Source of the DNA: Natrialba taiwanensis DSM 12281
GTDB taxonomy: Archaea > Halobacteriota > Halobacteria > Halobacteriales > Natrialbaceae
NCBI RefSeq assembly: GCF_000337595.1
Contig: NZ_AOIL01000013.1
Location: 188,149 to 241,211, forward strand
Direction of reading: 5' to 3'
DNA length: 53,063 bases
How positions within the stretch are numbered: position 1 is the first letter of the stretch; each line of letters opens with the position of its first letter. Below are positions 1-8,976 of the stretch, in pieces. Below the pieces are notes generated by a model. The model was not told the origin of the DNA, did not search any database, and saw only the letters and a program-made list of their open reading frames with translations. A program made the position numbers and the translations under genes.

Positions 1-1
1 G

Positions 2-235
2 ATGTACACAGACGTTGCGGGCGAGCGCCGCCAGGAGGCGACGACGGATCTGATGCTGTTCGGAGTCGCCGAGATCGTCTCCTATCTCTCGAAACGGTTC
101 ACCCTTCGCCCCGGCGACGTGATCGCGTTCGGCAGTCCAGCCAATCCCGGCCTGGTCGAGCCCGGAGACACCGTTGAAATTACCTACGAGGGCGTCGGGA
201 CGCTGCGGAATACGGTCGCCGAACCGACTGAGTGA
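2..235 (+). CDS. Fumarylacetoacetate hydrolase family protein, C-terminal part
   Basis: This is the last 77 codons of a gene that begins before the window. The visible part contains the family's C-terminal block: a region ending in SYLS, then LRPGDVIAFGSPANPG and a GDTVEI...GVGTLRN ending. This matches the FAH/FahA fold, whose members hydrolyse or decarboxylate acyl-pyruvate type substrates in a metal-dependent way. The metal-binding E-x-E/D residues lie upstream and cannot be seen, so the substrate cannot be assigned. The small C-terminal size of these archaeal members fits acylpyruvate hydrolase or 2-hydroxyhepta-2,4-diene-1,7-dioate isomerase annotations. The family call is secure; the exact activity is not. 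Confidence 0.85.
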   Translation: MYTDVAGERRQEATTDLMLFGVAEIVSYLSKRFTLRPGDVIAFGSPANPGLVEPGDTVEITYEGVGTLRNTVAEPTE

Positions 236-275
236 ACAGCGAGTGACCGGCGGGGGATCGGCGAGAGATTGGCGA

Positions 276-323
276 GGTACGGATACGGGTACGAGTACGA
301 ATACGAATGCGAATACAAATGCG
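276..323. repeat. Degenerate 6-bp tandem repeat
   Basis: Eight consecutive hexamers follow the pattern RRTACG (GGTACG, GATACG, GGTACG, AGTACG, AATACG, AATGCG, AATACA, AATGCG), and two more related units lie near 336-347. The array sits between the stop of the FAH gene and the chosen GTG start of the next gene, so it is treated as non-coding. It looks like a slippage-prone microsatellite. Confidence 0.7.
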
Positions 324-386
324 GGCGTGACGCAGGTATGGGTACGGGTAGAAAGGCACTTCAGGCCGAACACCCTCCGCCGACAC

Positions 387-896
387 GTGAGCGCTGACTC
401 CCGCCGCGTCGAGGTCCACCCCGGCCGCGAGGCCGTCGTCGAGTTCGATCCGGAACTCACCTTCGAGTGTGTCGACGACTGCACCTGGTGCTGTCACCAC
501 GGCGTTTTGCTGTACGATCGGGACTTACTCGAACTCGCCCAGCGGGCGAACCTCGCGGAGACGACGACCGATTTTCGGGGCGAGAAGTTCGTCACGCGCG
601 AGGAGAAAGCGCGGGACGAGCACGTCGCTGAAGACGGTCACGCGTGCGCGTTTCTTCGGGAAGACGGGCTCTGCTCGCTGCATCTGGATGAGGACTGGAA
701 ACCGACGCGGTGTTCGGTCTTTCCGCTCGGCGTCTGGCTTGAAGGGGGCGACCTTCACGTCGATATTCGGGAGTCGGCACACGACCACTGTGAGGGGCTG
801 AACGTCAGCGAACGCCGCGTGATCGACAATCTCGAGGCGTTCCTGCCGGAGCTGTTGTGGGACCTTGACAATCCGGACTCGGATCGGGAACTCTAA
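387..896 (+). CDS. YkgJ-type cysteine-cluster protein
   Basis: A 169-residue soluble protein. The Cys pattern CVDDCTWCC near residues 30-38 and later CAFL...GLCSLH...PTRCSVFPL is the signature of the YkgJ/CxxCxxCC family (UPF0153). Members are thought to bind zinc or an Fe-S cluster, and their biochemical role is not settled. The GTG at 387 is chosen because the reading frame before it runs through a hexamer repeat (276-323) that gives a TNTNAN low-complexity stretch unlike a real N-terminus, while the region after it (RRVEVHPGREAVVEFDP) looks like folded protein. It lies between the FAH gene and the aIF1A gene with no overlap. Confidence 0.85.
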   Translation: MSADSRRVEVHPGREAVVEFDPELTFECVDDCTWCCHHGVLLYDRDLLELAQRANLAETTTDFRGEKFVTREEKARDEHVAEDGHACAFLREDGLCSLHLDEDWKPTRCSVFPLGVWLEGGDLHVDIRESAHDHCEGLNVSERRVIDNLEAFLPELLWDLDNPDSDREL

Positions 897-975
897 TATA
901 TCTTATTATTCGTCCGCGAATGGCCCACTTTTTGCCACCCGTCGGGTGACACGTGATACCACTCCTTTCCGATAG

Positions 976-982
976 TTTAAAC
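976..982 (+). promoter_or_regulatory. TATA box of the aIF1A gene
   Basis: TTTAAAC is centred about 26 nt before the GTG start at 1005. That is the spacing expected if transcription starts at or next to the start codon, giving a leaderless mRNA as is common in haloarchaea. Confidence 0.55.
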
Positions 983-1004
983 GGCTGCCCCACGTAGGGA
1001 AGGT

Positions 1005-1289
1005 GTGACAGAAGACTCCGGGCGACGGAATCTCCGTATGCCCAACAACGATGAAGTATTCGCCGTCGTCACCGAACACCTCGGCGGCAACCACGTGCAA
1101 CTCCGCTGTGAGGACGGCGAGGAACGTCTCGGCCGTATTCCCGGCCGGATGAAGTATCGCACCTGGATCGAACAGGACGATATCGTCGTCGCCGAACCCT
1201 GGGACTGGCAGGACGAGAAGGCCACGATCGAGTGGCGCTACACCAGCCAGGACGCCGACCAGCTCCGCCGCGAAGGCCACATCGACTGA
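1005..1289 (+). CDS. eif1A: Translation initiation factor aIF1A
   Basis: A 94-residue OB-fold initiation factor. The sequence [33 protein letters not shown] and [14 protein letters not shown] is the conserved aIF1A core. The protein binds the small ribosomal subunit A site and promotes scanning-independent initiator tRNA placement. The GTG at 1005 gives [13 protein letters not shown], the usual haloarchaeal N-terminus, and a TATA element sits at the right distance for a leaderless transcript. Length is normal for the family. Nothing is missing. Confidence 0.97.
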
Positions 1290-1337
1290 TTTTACTCTCG
1301 CTCGCATGCTGACGCACGCGTAACCGAGCCGCGCTTC

Positions 1338-1907
1338 TCACGCCGACCCGTCTGCGAACGCCTCGACGATTCCCTCACAGAAAGCGTCGAGATCGTCCGG
1401 GTTTCGGCTCGTCACGAGCCCCTGATCAGTGACGAGTTCGTCGTCGACCCACTCGCCGCCCGCGTTACGGATATCCGTCTGCAGACTCGGATAGGAGGTG
1501 AGCGTCCGGCCGTCGACGACACCCGCCTCGACGAGCAGCCAGGGGCCGTGACAGATCACGCCGGCCGGTTTTCCGGCTTCGACGTGCTCGCGGAGGAGGG
1601 ACACCGCATCCTCGTCGAGTCGGAGTGTATCCGCGCCGACAGTGCCGCCGGGGACGATGAGTGCGTCGTACTCGTCCGCGCTGACCTCGCTGAACTGTTT
1701 GTCGACCGCGTAGGTCTCGCTCTCCTTGAGATCGTTGTTGACGCTCTGGGCCTCGCCGGTTTCGCTCCCGAGCACGTCGACGGTCGCGCCGGCGTCGGCG
1801 ACCGTCTGCTTCGGCTCGGTGAACTCGATTTCCTCGGTACCGGCTGGCGCGATGAAGATTCCGACCGTCGTGCCGTCGAGTGACTGCTCGTCGGTACTCA
1901 TACTCAT
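1338..1907 (-). CDS. DJ-1/PfpI family protein (class I glutamine amidotransferase-like)
   Basis: A 189-residue single-domain protein. After a short N-terminus it shows TTVGIFIAPAGTEEIEF, then ALIVPGGTVGAD and AGVICHGPWLLVEAG. C119 in the ICHGPWLL nucleophile elbow with the neighbouring H120 and the early Glu of EEIEF form the PfpI/DJ-1 active site. Family members include proteases, chaperones and deglycases acting on glyoxal-modified proteins; the sequence alone does not decide. The start at 1907 (or the Met two codons later) is preferred over an upstream Met at 1970, because the extra 21 residues are hydrophobic and not conserved in type. It is convergent with aIF1A. Confidence 0.9.
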   Translation of the reverse strand: MSMSTDEQSLDGTTVGIFIAPAGTEEIEFTEPKQTVADAGATVDVLGSETGEAQSVNNDLKESETYAVDKQFSEVSADEYDALIVPGGTVGADTLRLDEDAVSLLREHVEAGKPAGVICHGPWLLVEAGVVDGRTLTSYPSLQTDIRNAGGEWVDDELVTDQGLVTSRNPDDLDAFCEGIVEAFADGSA

Positions 1908-2006
1908 GCGCTGAACTCGTAGGAGCACGTGGAAAACGATTGCACCTACGCTTGCAACCGGAGCGTTCACGACGGATACTGAGACATGGTAGTGGGACCG
2001 TTGCCG

Positions 2007-3938
2007 TTACTTCCAACCGAAGAGGCGCTTGACGAGTGAGCGGTCGCTCGGTCGTTCTGCGAGAATCACCGAGCAGTCGACTTCGTTGACGACATCGAAG
2101 TGGAGCGATCCCGTGAGCAGCCGCGAGAGAAGTCCGCGCTCCGTTGCGCCGATGAGGAGCATCGAATGCTCTTTCGATTGGTGACAGATCGCACGTTCGA
2201 CGTCGCCCGAATCGTCGACCACGAGTTCGGCGTCCTGCAAGTTGTGGTCGACTGCCCAGTCCGAGAGGAACTGTTCCCCGGTCTGGCGCTCGTCGGGGTT
2301 ATCGACGACGTGCAGGAGCGTCACCTCGGCGTCCGACGTTTCGCGGAACGTTCGGGCGACTTCGGCACTCAGGTCCGAGTCCGGCCCGCCGGCGGTCGGC
2401 AGGAGGATTTTGGACGGGTCCAGTCCGCGGTCTTTCAGGACGAGGAAGTCACAGGGGAGCTGTCTCGTCAGTTCGCTGAGCGGCCGTTCTGCGCGCGCGG
2501 CGCCCCAGAGTTCGTTGACGCCCCAGCCGATCACGACGAGGTCGCTGCGTTTGCTCTCGGCCAGGTTGAAGATTTCCTCGAACGAGCGGTGCGTGACGAT
2601 CGTCGAGTACTCGAACTCGACATCGTAGTCGTCGATCTCACCGCCGACGTCTCGCAGTAACGCTTCGGATTCGGACACGATCTGATCACGCTGTCGTCCG
2701 CCGCTGGACTGATCCGGGATTTGCACGATGTGGACCACGTGTACGATCGCGGACTCGCGTTGTGCTGCGAGCGTTGCGGCGAGGTCGATGAGTCGGGATT
2801 CGGTGCGCGGGTTCGCGATCGGGACGAGGACCCGGTAGCCCTCTTCGTCTTCCTCTGTTCGCTCGGCTGTGTCGATCAGGGGAACGTACGACCGACCGAC
2901 GAGACCGCCGAACACCCACTCCTTGAACGACAGCCGGCGTTTAATCCCCTCGAAGCGGGCGGATTTGAGTCGTTCCTCGCTCGTCTGGAAGTAGTTGACG
3001 ACGGTGACGAGGAGGATGCCGCCGATGGTGTTCCCGAGCAGGACCGGCAGGACGAAATAGACCAAGCCGGTGAAAAAGCCGAGATCGCTGCTGACGAAGA
3101 CGGCGTAGGACATCTCGGTGAACGAGGTGACGACGTGAAACAGGTTCCCGATCGGAATCGCCAGGAACGCCATGTAGACGACGACGAGGCGAGAAATCGT
3201 ATCGCGAGAGGCGAAGGTAACCCAGACGACGCCGGCGACGATCAGCCCCGCGAAGGCTGCCTTGAAGAACAGGTCGAACCAGGGCGTCTCGATGCCGTGT
3301 GTTCCAAGGTACAGTGCAGCCTCGGCCGCGTCCTCGGAGAAGACGCCGCCCCACGCGAGCACCGCCGCCCCGATGGTAGCGCCGATGAAGTTCCCGATGA
3401 GGACGATCGTCCAGTGCCGAAAGAGCGCCGGAATGCTCGCGAGGCGCTCGAGCGTGAGTGCCACCGGCGGGAGCGTGTTTTCGGTGTAGAGCTGGTAGCC
3501 GCCGATGATGATGTAGATGAATCCGAGCGGGTACAACAGCGCACTCAGTATCGGATGGCCGTCCGTCGAACCGTAGAGCGAGGCGTACAACAGGAACGTG
3601 ATCGTGATCGCGAATCCCGCGGCGATCCCGCTGAAGAGCAGTTCGCGGTTTCCGGACGTGACCTCCTCGTCCGCGGCGGCGACGATTCGCTGGAAGACCT
3701 CGTCCGCGGAGAAGCGATCGCGAACGACCGAACCGACCGCGGGCGCGCCGCTACGCGAGCGTTCGACGGCGTCCCGCACCGCATCCTGGCGTTCCGTAGT
3801 GGTCACTTCCGGCACCGTGTGATCCGTCCCACGGTCCGCGTCCGACTCAATCGACTCGCGGTCGCGCCGGATGTCCTCGTCTCGTGCCTCGTCCTCGTCA
3901 CCAGGGGGTGGCGTGTGTTCGTGTTCAGAGGTATCCAT
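2007..3938 (-). CDS. Formate/nitrite transporter-like channel fused to two UspA domains
   Basis: A 643-residue fusion. Residues 1-75 are acidic and polar with no fold I recognise. Residues about 95-330 hold six membrane segments (ELLFSGIAAGFAITITFLLY, FIYIIIGGYQLYTENT, WTIVLIGNFIGATIG, FKAAFAGLIVAGVVWVTFA, IPIGNLFHVV, LLGNTIGGILLVTVVNYF) typical of the FNT family that conducts formate, nitrite or other small anions as pentamers. Residues about 365-500 and 505-625 are two UspA-like nucleotide-binding domains (YRVLVPIANP; ILLPTAGGPDSD and IGATERGLLSRLLTGS). The second keeps the Gly-rich ATP-binding end. The architecture suggests a channel gated by cytosolic Usp domains sensing energy state. The transported anion cannot be assigned. 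Confidence 0.9.
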   Translation of the reverse strand: MDTSEHEHTPPPGDEDEARDEDIRRDRESIESDADRGTDHTVPEVTTTERQDAVRDAVERSRSGAPAVGSVVRDRFSADEVFQRIVAAADEEVTSGNRELLFSGIAAGFAITITFLLYASLYGSTDGHPILSALLYPLGFIYIIIGGYQLYTENTLPPVALTLERLASIPALFRHWTIVLIGNFIGATIGAAVLAWGGVFSEDAAEAALYLGTHGIETPWFDLFFKAAFAGLIVAGVVWVTFASRDTISRLVVVYMAFLAIPIGNLFHVVTSFTEMSYAVFVSSDLGFFTGLVYFVLPVLLGNTIGGILLVTVVNYFQTSEERLKSARFEGIKRRLSFKEWVFGGLVGRSYVPLIDTAERTEEDEEGYRVLVPIANPRTESRLIDLAATLAAQRESAIVHVVHIVQIPDQSSGGRQRDQIVSESEALLRDVGGEIDDYDVEFEYSTIVTHRSFEEIFNLAESKRSDLVVIGWGVNELWGAARAERPLSELTRQLPCDFLVLKDRGLDPSKILLPTAGGPDSDLSAEVARTFRETSDAEVTLLHVVDNPDERQTGEQFLSDWAVDHNLQDAELVVDDSGDVERAICHQSKEHSMLLIGATERGLLSRLLTGSLHFDVVNEVDCSVILAERPSDRSLVKRLFGWK

Positions 3939-4033
3939 TACTAGACCGAGTCTCCCAGACGAACTAAGGCATTGGTATTTCGCTCAACGGAACCGGGATG
4001 CACATTCTTCACGCTACTTCCGATACCCATCGT

Positions 4034-4520
4034 ATGCGCTCCCCGGCCGGGTCCACAGCCATCGTCGTCGGAGCCGGTGTGGGCGGTCTCTCGACCGCCT
4101 GTTACCTCGCCGATGCCGGCGTGTCAGTTCACGTTGTCGAACAAAACGACCAACTCGGCGGCCGTGCGAGTCGGCTCGAACGCGACGGGTTCCGATTCGA
4201 TATGGGGCCGTCCTGGTACCTGATGCCCGACGTCTTCGAACGGTTCTTCGCCGCCTTCAACCGAACGCCTTCCGAGTACTACGACCTCACCCATCTCAAT
4301 CCACACTATCGGATCTTCTTCAAAGACGGAGACCAAGTGGACGTGACGCCCGACAGAGGACGAACGAAAGACGTCTTCGAGTCCTACGAAACAGGTGCCG
4401 GCGACGCGCTCGAACGCTATCTCGAGACCGCTCGCCACCATTACGAGATCGGCATGGAACACTTCGTCTACGAGGATCGGCCACGGCTTCGAGACTACAT
4501 CGACCCCAACGTCGCCCAGC
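4034..4520 (+). pseudogene. crtI: Truncated phytoene desaturase (crtI), 5' third only
   Basis: From the ATG at 4034 the frame reads as a CrtI-type phytoene desaturase: AIVVGAGVGGLSTACYLADAG (FAD-binding dinucleotide motif), VEQNDQLGGRAS, FDMGPSWYLMPDVFE, and a family-like stretch through RPRLRDYIDPNV. Similarity stops abruptly near 4515-4525, after about 160 of roughly 500 residues. The continuing frame turns into Arg-rich nonsense because it enters the antisense strand of a crtB fragment. The substrate-binding and C-terminal FAD regions are absent, so no active enzyme can be made. CrtI normally desaturates phytoene toward lycopene and bacterioruberin. Confidence 0.9.
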
Positions 4521-4724
4521 ACGAAGCGATTCGAGTTCAGCGCGTTGGGTGGCCGGCAGCACGTCGTCGGCGTCGTCGACGATTTCGTCTCCGAGCCGAA
4601 AAAAGGCGTAGAGGACGTGGGTCGCGCGACGAACTCGTCGCGGAAGGAACCTGGTTGCGAGATAGAAGGTTCTCCCGGTTCGTCGGTGGAGTTCCTTGCT
4701 GGCGGCGATGTGTTTCCGGTACAT
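4518..4724 (-). pseudogene. crtB: Truncated phytoene synthase (crtB), 5' part only
   Basis: On the minus strand from the ATG at 4724 the frame encodes the start of a phytoene synthase: KELHRRTGRTFYLATRFLP, ATHVLYAFFRLGDEIVDDAD, then ATQRAELESLR. The first aspartate-rich motif (DEIVDD) is present, but the coding similarity ends at about 4518 where it meets the crtI fragment tail to tail. Only about 68 of roughly 300 residues remain; the second Asp motif and the catalytic core are gone. CrtB condenses two geranylgeranyl diphosphates to phytoene. An upstream Met at 4766 exists, but the TATA box at 4782-4790 predicts a transcript start below it. Confidence 0.88.
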
Positions 4725-4781
4725 TCTTGCTCGTGTCAGCTCGGCGACTCGCTGAAAGATGGCCATCGTACTACAGAATCG

Positions 4782-4790
4782 TATAAAATA
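4782..4790 (-). promoter_or_regulatory. TATA box of the crtB remnant
   Basis: TATTTTATA on the minus strand predicts a transcript start near 4760, about 36 nt before the crtB ATG at 4724. The promoter appears intact although the gene is destroyed. Confidence 0.45.
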
Positions 4791-4891
4791 CCACGCCTTG
4801 ACTGCGGTCGGTACGAGCGGTGCTTCGGTGGAGAGATGCTCTGTTTCGAATATTCGGCCGTGTTTCCGGTGTGATCGTCCCGGCTAGATGG

Positions 4892-6181
4892 TCACGCCGA
4901 GTGTTGCTGTGATGGATCGCAGAGTTCGTCCGCGAGCATCGGGATGAACGCGCCGATGTCGGTGACCATGCCGATCGCCTGGGCGCTGCCGCGGTCGAGC
5001 AGTTGCGTGACGGTCGCGGGGTTGATGTCGACGCAGACGGTCTTCGTCGTCGAGGGCAGACAGTTGCCGACGGCGACGGAGTGGAGGAGGGTTGCGAGCA
5101 TGAGCACGATGTCGGCATCCTGGGCCTGTTCGCGGATCGCGTTCTGAGCCTCGATCGAGTCCGTGATCGTATCCGGCAGCGGGCCATCGTCGCGGATCGA
5201 CCCGGCGAGCACGTAGGGAACGTCGTTGCTGACGCACTCGTACATCACGCCCTCGTCGACGACGCCGGCGTCGACGGCCTCCGGAATGCTGCCGTGGCGG
5301 ACGATTTCGCTGATCGTGTAGATGTGGTGCTTGTGTCCCTTTCGCGGGTGTTCAAGGCTCTCGGTGTCGACGCCCAGCGAGGTGCCGTAGAGGTCCCGTT
5401 CTAAGTCGTGGACAGCGAACCCATTGCCGGCGCTGATCGCGTCGACGTACCCTTCTCGGACGAGTTCGGCGAGGGCGTCCCGACCGCCGGAGTGGACGAT
5501 TGCGGGGCCGCAGACGGCGAGGACGGTGCCGTCGTTCTCGCGGACGTCGCGCATCTCGTCGGCGATTTCCTCGATCAGCGACTCGGAGGGGCGCTCGCTG
5601 GAGACGCCGCCTTGCATGAAGCCGAACGAGCCGCCGCCGTTGCGGGGTCGTTCGGGGGGTTCGACCCTAATGCCGGTTTCGCCGGTGACGACGAGGTCGC
5701 CTTCTTCGACGGCGTTCAGGACTTTGGTGGTGACGCGGGGAGTTCCGGGTCCGGTTTCGTCGCTTTCGCCGTCTCCGTCGCTATCGTCACCGTGTCGCTC
5801 GACGATCAGCGCACAGTCCATCTCGATATCCTCGACCGCCACCCAGTCGCCGTCGACGCGGACGTACGTCGGGTGGTTCGTCGTCGAGTAGAAGTCGACC
5901 GGAACGACCTGATCGTTCGGAGCGGGTTCTATCGTCGCGTCCCGCGGATCGGCGACGGTCGCCCCCTGCTGGTTAAGTTCGTGCAGGATCGCCCGGAGGT
6001 CCTCGTGGCTCTCGGCGGTAACTTCCATCCGGCAGTACGTCTCGTCGTGTTTGTGGCGGCCGACCTCGAACTCCTCGACTTCGAACTCGCCGCCCATCTC
6101 CATGACGGCACCGAAACAATGGCCCATCGACCCGGAGTCGATAATGTGACCCTCGAGTTCGACGGTCTGGGAAACTGTCAT
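4892..6181 (-). CDS. Ornithine cyclodeaminase, nickel-pincer nucleotide-dependent (TIGR00300 family)
   Basis: A 429-residue protein matching the archaeal LOR/SDH-conserved-region family. The N-terminal part (SQTVELEGHIIDSGSMGHCF, FEVGRHKHDETYCRMEV) is the LOR/SDH domain. The C-terminal part has GPAIVHSGGRDALAELV, GNGFAVHDLE and HPRKGHKHHIYTISEIVRHGSI, followed by a Rossmann-like end (ADIVLMLATLLHSVAVGN, TVCVDINPATVTQLLDRGS). Characterised archaeal members convert ornithine to proline and ammonia. The Met at 6181 is chosen over one ten codons upstream because MTVSQTVELEGHI is the family-like N-terminus. An acidic linker (residues about 135-150) is a haloarchaeal-style insertion. A proline dehydrogenase lies elsewhere in the window. 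Confidence 0.88.
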   Translation of the reverse strand: MTVSQTVELEGHIIDSGSMGHCFGAVMEMGGEFEVEEFEVGRHKHDETYCRMEVTAESHEDLRAILHELNQQGATVADPRDATIEPAPNDQVVPVDFYSTTNHPTYVRVDGDWVAVEDIEMDCALIVERHGDDSDGDGESDETGPGTPRVTTKVLNAVEEGDLVVTGETGIRVEPPERPRNGGGSFGFMQGGVSSERPSESLIEEIADEMRDVRENDGTVLAVCGPAIVHSGGRDALAELVREGYVDAISAGNGFAVHDLERDLYGTSLGVDTESLEHPRKGHKHHIYTISEIVRHGSIPEAVDAGVVDEGVMYECVSNDVPYVLAGSIRDDGPLPDTITDSIEAQNAIREQAQDADIVLMLATLLHSVAVGNCLPSTTKTVCVDINPATVTQLLDRGSAQAIGMVTDIGAFIPMLADELCDPSQQHSA

Positions 6182-6299
6182 TGGTGTGGGTTGGCGACCG
6201 AAGACCGTCAAGGTGTGTGTCTTCGGTCGCCGCTCTCACGGTGGGGCCGGTGATCGTCACCGCCCGAAAGCGGGCCGACGGACGACGGTTCTCGGTTCG

Positions 6300-7649
6300 T
6301 CAGCGTATCCGGTCGGTGAGCCACTCCCGCGGCGGATCCTCGAACGGCCACCGTCCGCATTCCGTTTGCGTGAGCGAGCCGCCAGTCCGCTGTGCGTACT
6401 CTCGTTGTTTCTGTCCCAGCCGATAGTGACAGCTCTCGGGCTGTCGCTTCTCCCAGTAGATCGTCTGCATCGACTCGATTTCGTCCGGCTTCTCCGGGAG
6501 CGTTTCGTAATTCGAAATCGACACCGCCTCGTGGGCCTCTTCGACTTCGGTCTTGATCGGCGTCACCGGGCCCCCGACCCAGTAGAGGCTTGCGACTGCG
6601 AGCAACGCGACGGTGCCGGCGACGATCGACCGTCGTCTCGGGGTCCGTGTCGTTGCGATCACTAGGCCAACGCCGATGGAGAGAAAGAGCAACAGGAGGA
6701 TCAGTTCGATAGCGCCCTGCATCTCGAGGAAGATCTGCAGCGAGTACAGCGAGCCCCCCGCGCCGACCCACCAGTATCGTCGCCAATCGAGAGCGATCCC
6801 TCGAACCCACCCGTAGACGCCGAGCGGGATCAACAGTGCTCCGTATCCGAGGATCATTACGAGGTCGAGAAGCCGCCCCGGAATCGTGTACCGTTCGACG
6901 CCGTAAATCGGCGCGAGGACCGTTTCCAGGAAGAGCGGGACGGTCGCGTTCGCGGCGACGAACGGGGCGACGACGACGATCGTCACGAGCGCTCCGCCGG
7001 CTATCGTTCGCGCCAGGCCGCGGCTTCTCCCGCGCTGGAACCCGATGGCGAGAACGAGCGCGGAGAGTGGCCCGCCGAGCTGCCAGAACCCGGCGCTCGT
7101 CGCGGCGGCGGCACCGCTCAGCGCCGGCCGATCCGTCACTGCAAACAAGAGGCCCGCAACCCCGAACAGCAAGGCGAGGTATTTCGGTCTGAGTCCCACC
7201 GCCGGAAAGCCATAGAGCGACGGGACGACGAACATCGTCGCACCGGCGACGAAACTCGCGAACTCGTGTGCTGTTAACCGATAGGTGAGCAGCCCGACGA
7301 GCGTCACGCCGACGACGACCGAGCCGACGGCGACGCCGATGCTCAGCAGGTGCAACACCAGCATATTGCCGCCCGAAAGGAACGCCAAGACGGTCGTGAC
7401 GGCGTAGATGAGCGGCGGTTTCAGATCCCAGAAATCGACGTACGGGGTTGCCCCTTGCAGGATGTACCACCCGGCGTGCTGAAACAGCGCCGAGTCGTCG
7501 TGTATGCGGAACGGTTCGTGAACGAACTGGACCATCGTCGCGACCGTCACGAGGACGGTCGATCCCGCGAAAAGCAACCCGAGCCAGTGCTGCTCGAACT
7601 GATCGGTCCAGCGAGGCGGTATACTCGCACTCGATTCTCGAGATCCCAT
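6300..7649 (-). CDS. Polytopic glycosyltransferase-like membrane protein (DolP-mannose mannosyltransferase type)
   Basis: A 449-residue protein with about ten hydrophobic segments. After the first helix it carries IHDDSALFQHAGWYILQGATPYVDFWDLKPPL; acidic residues in the first external loop and the PYVDFWDLKPPL motif are typical of GT-C glycosyltransferases and of the haloarchaeal DolP-mannose mannosyltransferase group. The soluble C-terminal tail ends in CGRWPFEDPP. It would transfer a sugar from a polyprenyl phosphate carrier on the outer face of the membrane. The start at 7649 skips 34 Arg-rich upstream codons that read through intergenic DNA. It is the last gene of a minus-strand cluster with a broken gtrA and a GT2 gene. 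Confidence 0.75.
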   Translation of the reverse strand: MGSRESSASIPPRWTDQFEQHWLGLLFAGSTVLVTVATMVQFVHEPFRIHDDSALFQHAGWYILQGATPYVDFWDLKPPLIYAVTTVLAFLSGGNMLVLHLLSIGVAVGSVVVGVTLVGLLTYRLTAHEFASFVAGATMFVVPSLYGFPAVGLRPKYLALLFGVAGLLFAVTDRPALSGAAAATSAGFWQLGGPLSALVLAIGFQRGRSRGLARTIAGGALVTIVVVAPFVAANATVPLFLETVLAPIYGVERYTIPGRLLDLVMILGYGALLIPLGVYGWVRGIALDWRRYWWVGAGGSLYSLQIFLEMQGAIELILLLLFLSIGVGLVIATTRTPRRRSIVAGTVALLAVASLYWVGGPVTPIKTEVEEAHEAVSISNYETLPEKPDEIESMQTIYWEKRQPESCHYRLGQKQREYAQRTGGSLTQTECGRWPFEDPPREWLTDRIR

Positions 7650-7751
7650 ACTCGGTCGGTGTCGTACTAGCTGCCTTTGATCGAATAAGATCGGTGCTGG
7701 CACTCTGCGAGCACCGACGAGAGTTTGCGGGTCTGAAGGGAATTCGCGCAC

Positions 7752-8040
7752 TCAGGCGTCGCCGCCGAGCACGCTTTCCGGGACGTAGTTACGGCCATCC
7801 CGGCGCAGATACCGATACCGATACCGTTTGCGACTGTCGGCCAGCGATCGATGCCCGCAATCGGGAGTCTCATCGAGAGAAGGCGGGTCAATCCGAACAG
7901 AACGGGGAAGCCGATCGAGAGCTCCGCGACCCTGACGAATGCGAGTTCGTCCGCCGGTCCAAGAGCGCGATTCCGCCGGCAGTTCCGCTTCCCGCTCGAT
8001 GCACGAGTTCACCGAACACGGACGTATTTTTCCGTCCCAT
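7752..8040 (-). pseudogene. Broken GtrA-like membrane protein gene
   Basis: No single frame is open, but spliced frames give a GtrA-like C-terminal half. One frame reads LAFVRVAELSIGFPVLFGLT then PTVANGIGIGICAGMAV, and after a one-base shift near 7790-7795 the next frame continues NYVPESVLGGDA and stops. The combined VANGIGIG...VNYVPESVL matches the last helix of haloarchaeal GtrA proteins (ANAxGIGVGFxVNYxLESL). A missing A in the Val-Asn junction would explain the shift. A first piece starts at an ATG at 8040, 20 nt after the GT2 stop, and needs another frame change near 7955-7965. GtrA proteins are thought to flip or present polyprenyl-linked sugars. Remnant identity is inferred from pattern, not alignment. 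Confidence 0.55.
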
Positions 8041-8060
8041 ATTCGATCACACTGAACTCG

Positions 8061-8789
8061 TCAGTGACTCGGCGTTCGGACGGCGCGGTTCGTTGCGATC
8101 GCGTCGGTCCGTCGTTTTACGGTAATCAGTGCGGCGAGTAACTCGAACGATGTCGGGAGCGGGTCGACCGTTGAATCGAGCTGATCCGCCCAGACGACGG
8201 GCACTTCGGCGATATCGTATCCGAGCACGCCGGCGACCGAAACGAACTCTAAATCCCACGCGAAGCCGCGTTCGTAGCAGTGTCGTCCGATCGATTCCCA
8301 GGCGTCCGCGCGAACGTCTTTCGCCCCGCACTGGTAATCGCGACACTGCGCCGGGAGGACCCGTCTGGCGGCGACCGCGAACAGCGCTCCCAGAAACCGA
8401 CGAACGACGGTCTGGTGGGCGAGTATCTTCGACGAGGGGTGCCGGCGCGAGCCGATACAGACCTCGGATTCTTCCGCTCGTATTTCTCGGACGATATCGT
8501 CGAGCGACGAGACGGGGATGGAGCCGTCGGCGTCGGCGAAGACGTAAATATCGGTGTCGAGCGCGTCAAATCCCGCCGTGATCGCAGCGCCCTTGCCGCG
8601 TCGATCCCGCGACGTATTGAGGTCGATTGCCGACTCCGAGAGGACTTCGACGTGCGATTCGGTCGGCTGATCGAGTTCGATCCGAACGGTTTCGGGGTTG
8701 AGTGCGGTTCGAACGGCCGTGAGATACCGGCTCAGCACGAGTGGATCGGGATCGTATGCCGGGATGACGACGCCGAGAGAGTCAGTCAT
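8061..8789 (-). CDS. Family 2 glycosyltransferase (polyprenyl-phosphate sugar synthase-like)
   Basis: A 242-residue GT-A enzyme with no membrane anchor. It shows GVVIPAYDPDPLVLSRYL at the N-terminus, RDRRGKGAAITAGFDAL, the metal-binding YVFADADGSIPVSSLDDIV (DAD acts as the DxD motif), IGSRRHPSS, and FAWDLEFVSVAGVLGYDIAEVPVVW, which is the dolichyl-phosphate glucose/mannose synthase pattern. It probably loads a sugar from a nucleotide donor onto a polyprenyl phosphate. It is followed by the gtrA remnant and a GT-C membrane enzyme on the same strand, a familiar load-flip-transfer set. The start at 8789 is the only Met that leaves the first beta strand intact. Confidence 0.88.
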   Translation of the reverse strand: MTDSLGVVIPAYDPDPLVLSRYLTAVRTALNPETVRIELDQPTESHVEVLSESAIDLNTSRDRRGKGAAITAGFDALDTDIYVFADADGSIPVSSLDDIVREIRAEESEVCIGSRRHPSSKILAHQTVVRRFLGALFAVAARRVLPAQCRDYQCGAKDVRADAWESIGRHCYERGFAWDLEFVSVAGVLGYDIAEVPVVWADQLDSTVDPLPTSFELLAALITVKRRTDAIATNRAVRTPSH

Positions 8790-8976
8790 CTCCTCGAACC
8801 CCCTCGCGCCTCCGCTTGCGGGACGCTTCGCTCGTTCTCGACGCTGAGTTCACGTGCAGCCACGTCGTACTCTCCTCTCTGTGTCTCTGTTCTCGCTTTC
8901 CATTCGTCAGCCCGTTTCTCGGCTCTCATACCGTCGAAAATGGACCTGACCTTCGCGGTTGTATCGTTCGCGTCGG

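Follow-up and report, generated by a model that had tools for sequence, protein, structure and literature searches.

The window, the whole stretch of 53,063 nucleotides of Natrialba taiwanensis DSM 12281 that was analysed, contains the beginnings of two carotenoid genes joined tail to tail. The plus-strand frame at 4034-4522 holds the first 163 codons of crtI/crtD (bifunctional phytoene desaturase/3,4-desaturase), the full length of which is about 502 codons, and then reads on into antisense crtB to end at 4786. This frame matched the CrtID model NF058655 (E 5.4e-71) over profile positions 2-156 of 478, corresponding to about 155 N-terminal residues, and the crtI family model TIGR02734 over positions 1-154 of 504 only. 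On the minus strand, the frame starting from the ATG at 4724 matched SQS_PSY (PF00494; E 2e-12, 47.8 bits) over its 55 N-terminal positions. It holds the 5' remnant of crtB (phytoene synthase) at 4518-4724, with 69 of 316 codons, and reads on into antisense crtI to end at 4320. The two remnants meet at 4519-4523, deep within a contig of 284 kb, where alignment to Natrialba aegyptia and Natrialba asiatica revealed a 5-bp microhomology, GCACG. The preliminary description of this DNA, made from its letters alone, had the first third of crtI joined tail to tail to the first 68 codons of crtB, with both genes breaking at about 4515-4525. The profile matches and alignments bear out this arrangement, the breakpoint mapped by BLASTN (4519-4523) falls inside that range, and the crtB remnant itself stands, its length being 69 codons instead.

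Both flanks of the junction are syntenic in N. aegyptia and N. asiatica. On the left, divergent from crtI, the minus-strand gene at 2007-3938 encodes a formate/nitrite-transporter-like membrane protein with UspA domains, which we take to be a transporter-UspA fusion from reading its sequence rather than from a family search. On the right, the minus-strand gene at 4892-6211 is the conserved neighbour of crtB, presumably with a TIGR00300-like product as judged by reading. Farther out on the crtB side, N. asiatica lacks about 2.7 kb of the window (6242-8963, against L029 16271-16344), including genes for a membrane protein and a glycosyltransferase-like protein.

Reconstruction of the missing DNA and the search for other copies

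The intact gene order, crtI, lyeJ and cruF in one direction facing crtB in the other, was found with all frames open in N. aegyptia DSM 13077 (L028 9986-14629) and N. asiatica DSM 12278 (L029 9986-14754), and neither stops nor frameshifts were detected in these two clusters. The N. aegyptia homologues exceeded the NCBIfam cut-offs for CrtID (766.8 against 640), the PRK12875 prenyltransferase (460 against 205) and CruF_Halo (405 against 300). By BLASTN, window positions 1-4523 align with L028 5935-10475 (94.4%) and positions 4519-7987 with L028 14424-17908 (92.4%), leaving 3,953 bp (L028 10476-14428) missing with respect to N. aegyptia, or 4,078 bp with N. asiatica as the yardstick. Gone with this DNA are lyeJ and cruF in their entirety, the part of crtI beyond the remnant (two thirds of the gene) and the last 247 codons of crtB (78% of it).

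Collinear flanks, one junction and an absent interior make up the pattern of a single-event deletion scar. Both parental breakpoints carry GCACG, of which the window retains a single copy at 4519-4523; such short identity at both breakpoints is what microhomology-mediated end joining leaves behind, and an overlap of at least 5 bp arises in about 0.008 of cases when breakpoints in crtI and crtB are drawn at random. A repeat search found no direct repeat linking the two breakpoints, which have merely 5 bp in common, and no tandem repeats at the junction. The two-part collinear alignment with its 5-bp overlap upholds the earlier proposal that one deletion took everything between crtI and crtB, including lyeJ and cruF. 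From these alignments we infer a single event, which would most simply have proceeded via microhomology-mediated end joining.

The genome (4,635,192 bases in 70 contigs, a draft of 97.85% completeness) was searched by family, by protein and by DNA. In the whole-assembly DNA search, matches to the deleted region were confined to the two junction flanks, with no second copy or translocation. No crtI-family match above the cut-off was found elsewhere in the genome, and CruF (PF04240) had no match in it. The protein search returned no LyeJ homologue in the genome; an empty protein answer is weak by itself, and the DNA search agrees with it. Full-length CrtI/CrtD, LyeJ, CruF and CrtB, the four requirements of a functional bacterioruberin locus, are all lacking. 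The search for second copies of crtB and crtI that the preliminary description had called for detected no intact copy in the assembly.

The sole further gene of the SQS/PSY family in the genome (PF00494, C70:160031-160918) was considered as a spare phytoene synthase and rejected, because it is squalene-synthase-like, its best match being squalene synthase TIGR01559 (116.6 bits, under the cut-off), and because an equally scoring orthologue exists in all seven Natrialba genomes. Outside the trio of N. taiwanensis, N. aegyptia and N. asiatica, each of the four other Natrialba genomes (G003-G006) carries an additional phytoene/squalene synthase gene and an additional CrtI-like match, both of which are missing in the trio. 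Throughout the class Halobacteria, CruF was detected in 388 of 391 genomes, N. taiwanensis being one of the three without it. The other two CruF-less genomes (G366 and G389) also gave no crtI-family match above the cut-off, and are probably independent losses of the pathway.

Promoters and constraint in the three pigment-free species

The core promoter of the crtI operon was analysed by alignment of 45 loci. Most of the 42 Natrialbaceae loci outside the trio share a core promoter with the consensus CCCTAC.TA.GTATGAC.TACGTTTATCA, carrying mostly ACGTTTATCA or ACGTTTAACA at the TATA position. The remnant in the window (plus strand, 3998-4033) carries the TATA-like box ACATTCTTCA at about 4001-4010; the same ACATTCTTCA occupies this position in N. 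aegyptia and N. asiatica, the upstream box is absent in all three species, and their position-matrix scores are among the lowest of the 45 loci. Counter-examples exist for each of the two changes: Natronococcus jeotgali (L040), with ACATTCATCA, is the only other locus with the T-to-C change, and two further loci (L046 and L094) have a good TATA box without the upstream box. The upstream region of crtB (minus strand, 4725-4880) still contains its conserved TATA box TATTTTATAC, as identified by alignment of crtB upstream regions, and all three species alike have an intact crtB promoter (TATTTTATA). Upstream of crtI, N. jeotgali also has the same adjoining transporter-UspA gene as the Natrialba trio, next to its nearly identical weak TATA box, which suggests that this upstream region was shared or exchanged.

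Constraint on the genes was estimated as dN/dS by Nei-Gojobori counts over conserved domains in close species pairs only, so that the values rest on small numbers and on pairs that are not independent. For three genes the aegyptia-asiatica pair gave the highest value of all: lyeJ (0.48, the next being 0.18; 31 close pairs), cruF (0.34, the next 0.24; 36 close pairs) and crtB (0.215, the next 0.16; 31 close pairs). For crtI the value of this pair was ordinary (0.099; 75 close pairs). Taken together, lyeJ and cruF exceed the neighbouring genes of the aegyptia-asiatica pair (Fisher p 0.003) and crtB is not beyond them (p 0.38), the neighbour-gene counts in this comparison being the sound-looking ones kept from a cruder first dN/dS pass. 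Constraint on lyeJ and cruF is relaxed in N. aegyptia and N. asiatica; relaxation of crtB is less clear.

Position 45 of CrtB, next to the first aspartate-rich motif, is glycine in both N. aegyptia and N. asiatica, against alanine in 59 of 59 other sequences, and the crtB remnant in the window also has glycine there. Other unusual residues shared by N. aegyptia and N. asiatica are CrtB H247Y, CruF N207D and LyeJ Y51H/L52V. In total, however, the deviations at conserved residues of the relatives' enzymes are not extreme in number. Within the crtI remnant, nonsynonymous and synonymous changes number 6:10 on the window lineage, and 0:7 and 4:8 on those of the relatives; the former ratio is compatible with recent relaxation. 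The crtI remnant contains no stop before the junction, so the deletion is unlikely to be very old.

Pigment and the order of events

Since the required genes are gone and the assembly offers no replacements, lack of bacterioruberin is expected; judged from knowledge of the pathway, the strain should be without phytoene, lycopene and bacterioruberin, and so without C40 and C50 carotenoids. Mutation of crtB leaves Haloferax colourless, and mutation of crtD turns it white (PMC8305020). We found no pigment measurement for N. taiwanensis itself in the open literature; its type strain is the former N. asiatica B1 according to the title of Hezayen et al. 2001, which also calls N. aegyptia non-pigmented. 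N. asiatica has been described as non-pigmented (PMC1828056), and bacterioruberin was wholly absent by lipidomics in strain DSM 12278 (PMC10704169), the same strain in which the complete cluster was found. The preliminary description had proposed comparison with a pigmented relative, and had predicted a strain lacking red pigment as the result of the deletion. The comparison turned out otherwise: the closest relatives hold the whole cluster but are colourless, by measurement in N. asiatica and by description in N. aegyptia. Absence of red pigment remains the expected effect of the lesion, but the comparison does not support the deletion as the origin of colourlessness. With the clusters of N. 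asiatica and N. aegyptia intact, it cannot explain the colour of those species, and since the colourless trait is common to the species group, the deletion more plausibly came late, when a pathway no longer in use was already decaying.

What the locus shows is, in all likelihood, the scar of a natural deletion from the bacterioruberin cluster, in a pathway most likely already silent. The ancestral N. taiwanensis locus would have had the arrangement still seen in N. aegyptia and N. asiatica, with crtB facing crtI, lyeJ and cruF. Before the three pigment-free Natrialba diverged, pigment synthesis would already have failed, the probable cause being a decayed crtI-operon promoter, and constraint on lyeJ and cruF would have relaxed after this silencing. 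In the N. taiwanensis lineage, a single end-joining event would then have fused codon 163 of crtI to codon 69 of crtB with the loss of 3.95 kb, striking a cluster already dispensable. Promoter decay as the cause, and the order of these events, are inferred from comparison among the three species. Some findings speak against this account. The constraint on crtI is normal (dN/dS 0.099), a poor fit to a pathway dead since the common ancestor; this continued constraint is the weakest point of the account, which leaves it unexplained. In addition, the weakened promoter is nearly matched in N. jeotgali, and the raised dN/dS of crtB does not exceed that of the neighbouring genes. A staged death of the pathway, in which promoter decay was followed by loss of downstream constraint and then by deletion of the cluster in one lineage, with crtI kept in the other two for another or a conditional role, is put forward only tentatively.

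An assembly collapse or chimaera at the junction, the living strain carrying the full cluster, seems very improbable. The assembly is a draft of 70 short contigs, which would allow such an error; however, the breakpoints share 5 bp and no long repeat that could collapse, the flanks are collinear on both sides, the missing 3.95 kb appears in no contig, and the species group is reported to be non-pigmented. We also consider it unlikely that the deletion itself ended pigment in N. taiwanensis and that other, later lesions separately made N. asiatica and N. aegyptia colourless. The TATA-box change is identical in all three species, as is CrtB A45G, which is otherwise unseen, and the two species with intact clusters show relaxed lyeJ and cruF, so that one common cause is simpler, even though such independent losses would agree with the relatives' coding sequences, free of stops and frameshifts, and with the constraint still seen on crtI. 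Doubtful, too, is the possibility that the clusters of N. asiatica and N. aegyptia are functional and induced only under conditions outside culture, the capacity having been lost in N. taiwanensis alone. The constrained crtI, the intact crtB promoter and the high scores with which the family models were passed all point in that direction; against it stand the undetected bacterioruberin in N. asiatica, the consistent descriptions as non-pigmented and the weak crtI-operon promoter.

As a side observation, a seven-helix, opsin-like protein of N. taiwanensis (L121 738-1523; G000 C49:129756-130394) gave a weak match to PF01036 (26.5 bits) and reads ...TYLDIVWLAGFG... at the Schiff-base lysine site of retinal proteins, as does the N. 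aegyptia copy. As a sign of retinal use this match was rejected, because it is weak and the retinal lysine is missing by reading; the protein is possibly a lysine-less opsin homologue in pigment-free species. N. taiwanensis and N. aegyptia are also among seven haloarchaea without an annotated photolyase (PMC4230888), which is suggestive of a lineage with little light exposure or little need for light protection.

Comparison with known bacterioruberin loci

The capacity for bacterioruberin is near-universal in the class, CruF being missing in only 3 of 391 genomes. Against this background the locus represents a clean natural knockout beside sister species that hold the genes without the pigment, and the "non-pigmented Natrialba" become a testable series of genetic steps, providing strains with which the cost to a cell of lacking C50 carotenoids can be studied. 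Loss of a gene cluster is a familiar kind of event; the instance is new, such loss is rare in the class, and intermediate stages survive in the sister species.

The bacterioruberin cluster crtD-lyeJ-cruF is known from Haloarcula japonica (c0507-c0506-c0505) and Haloferax volcanii (HVO_2528-2527-2526, with crtB as HVO_2524) (PMC8305020, PMC7179442). The same families in the same three-gene order are kept in N. aegyptia and N. asiatica, whereas in N. taiwanensis lyeJ and cruF are gone and crtI and crtB are reduced to their 5' ends. In H. volcanii, CRISPR self-targeting gives rise to microhomology-mediated end-joining deletions in crtI, and colonies lacking crtI are white (PMC7521656). As in these white mutants, a carotenoid desaturase gene of N. 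taiwanensis was hit by a deletion joined via short homology; unlike them, the deletion was not provoked in the laboratory but is a natural one of 3.95 kb affecting four genes in the sequenced strain. The haloarchaea that naturally lack red carotenoids include N. asiatica, N. aegyptia, Halorhabdus tiamatea and Halomicroarcula pellucida; among them, N. asiatica and N. aegyptia differ from N. taiwanensis in having kept the complete cluster.
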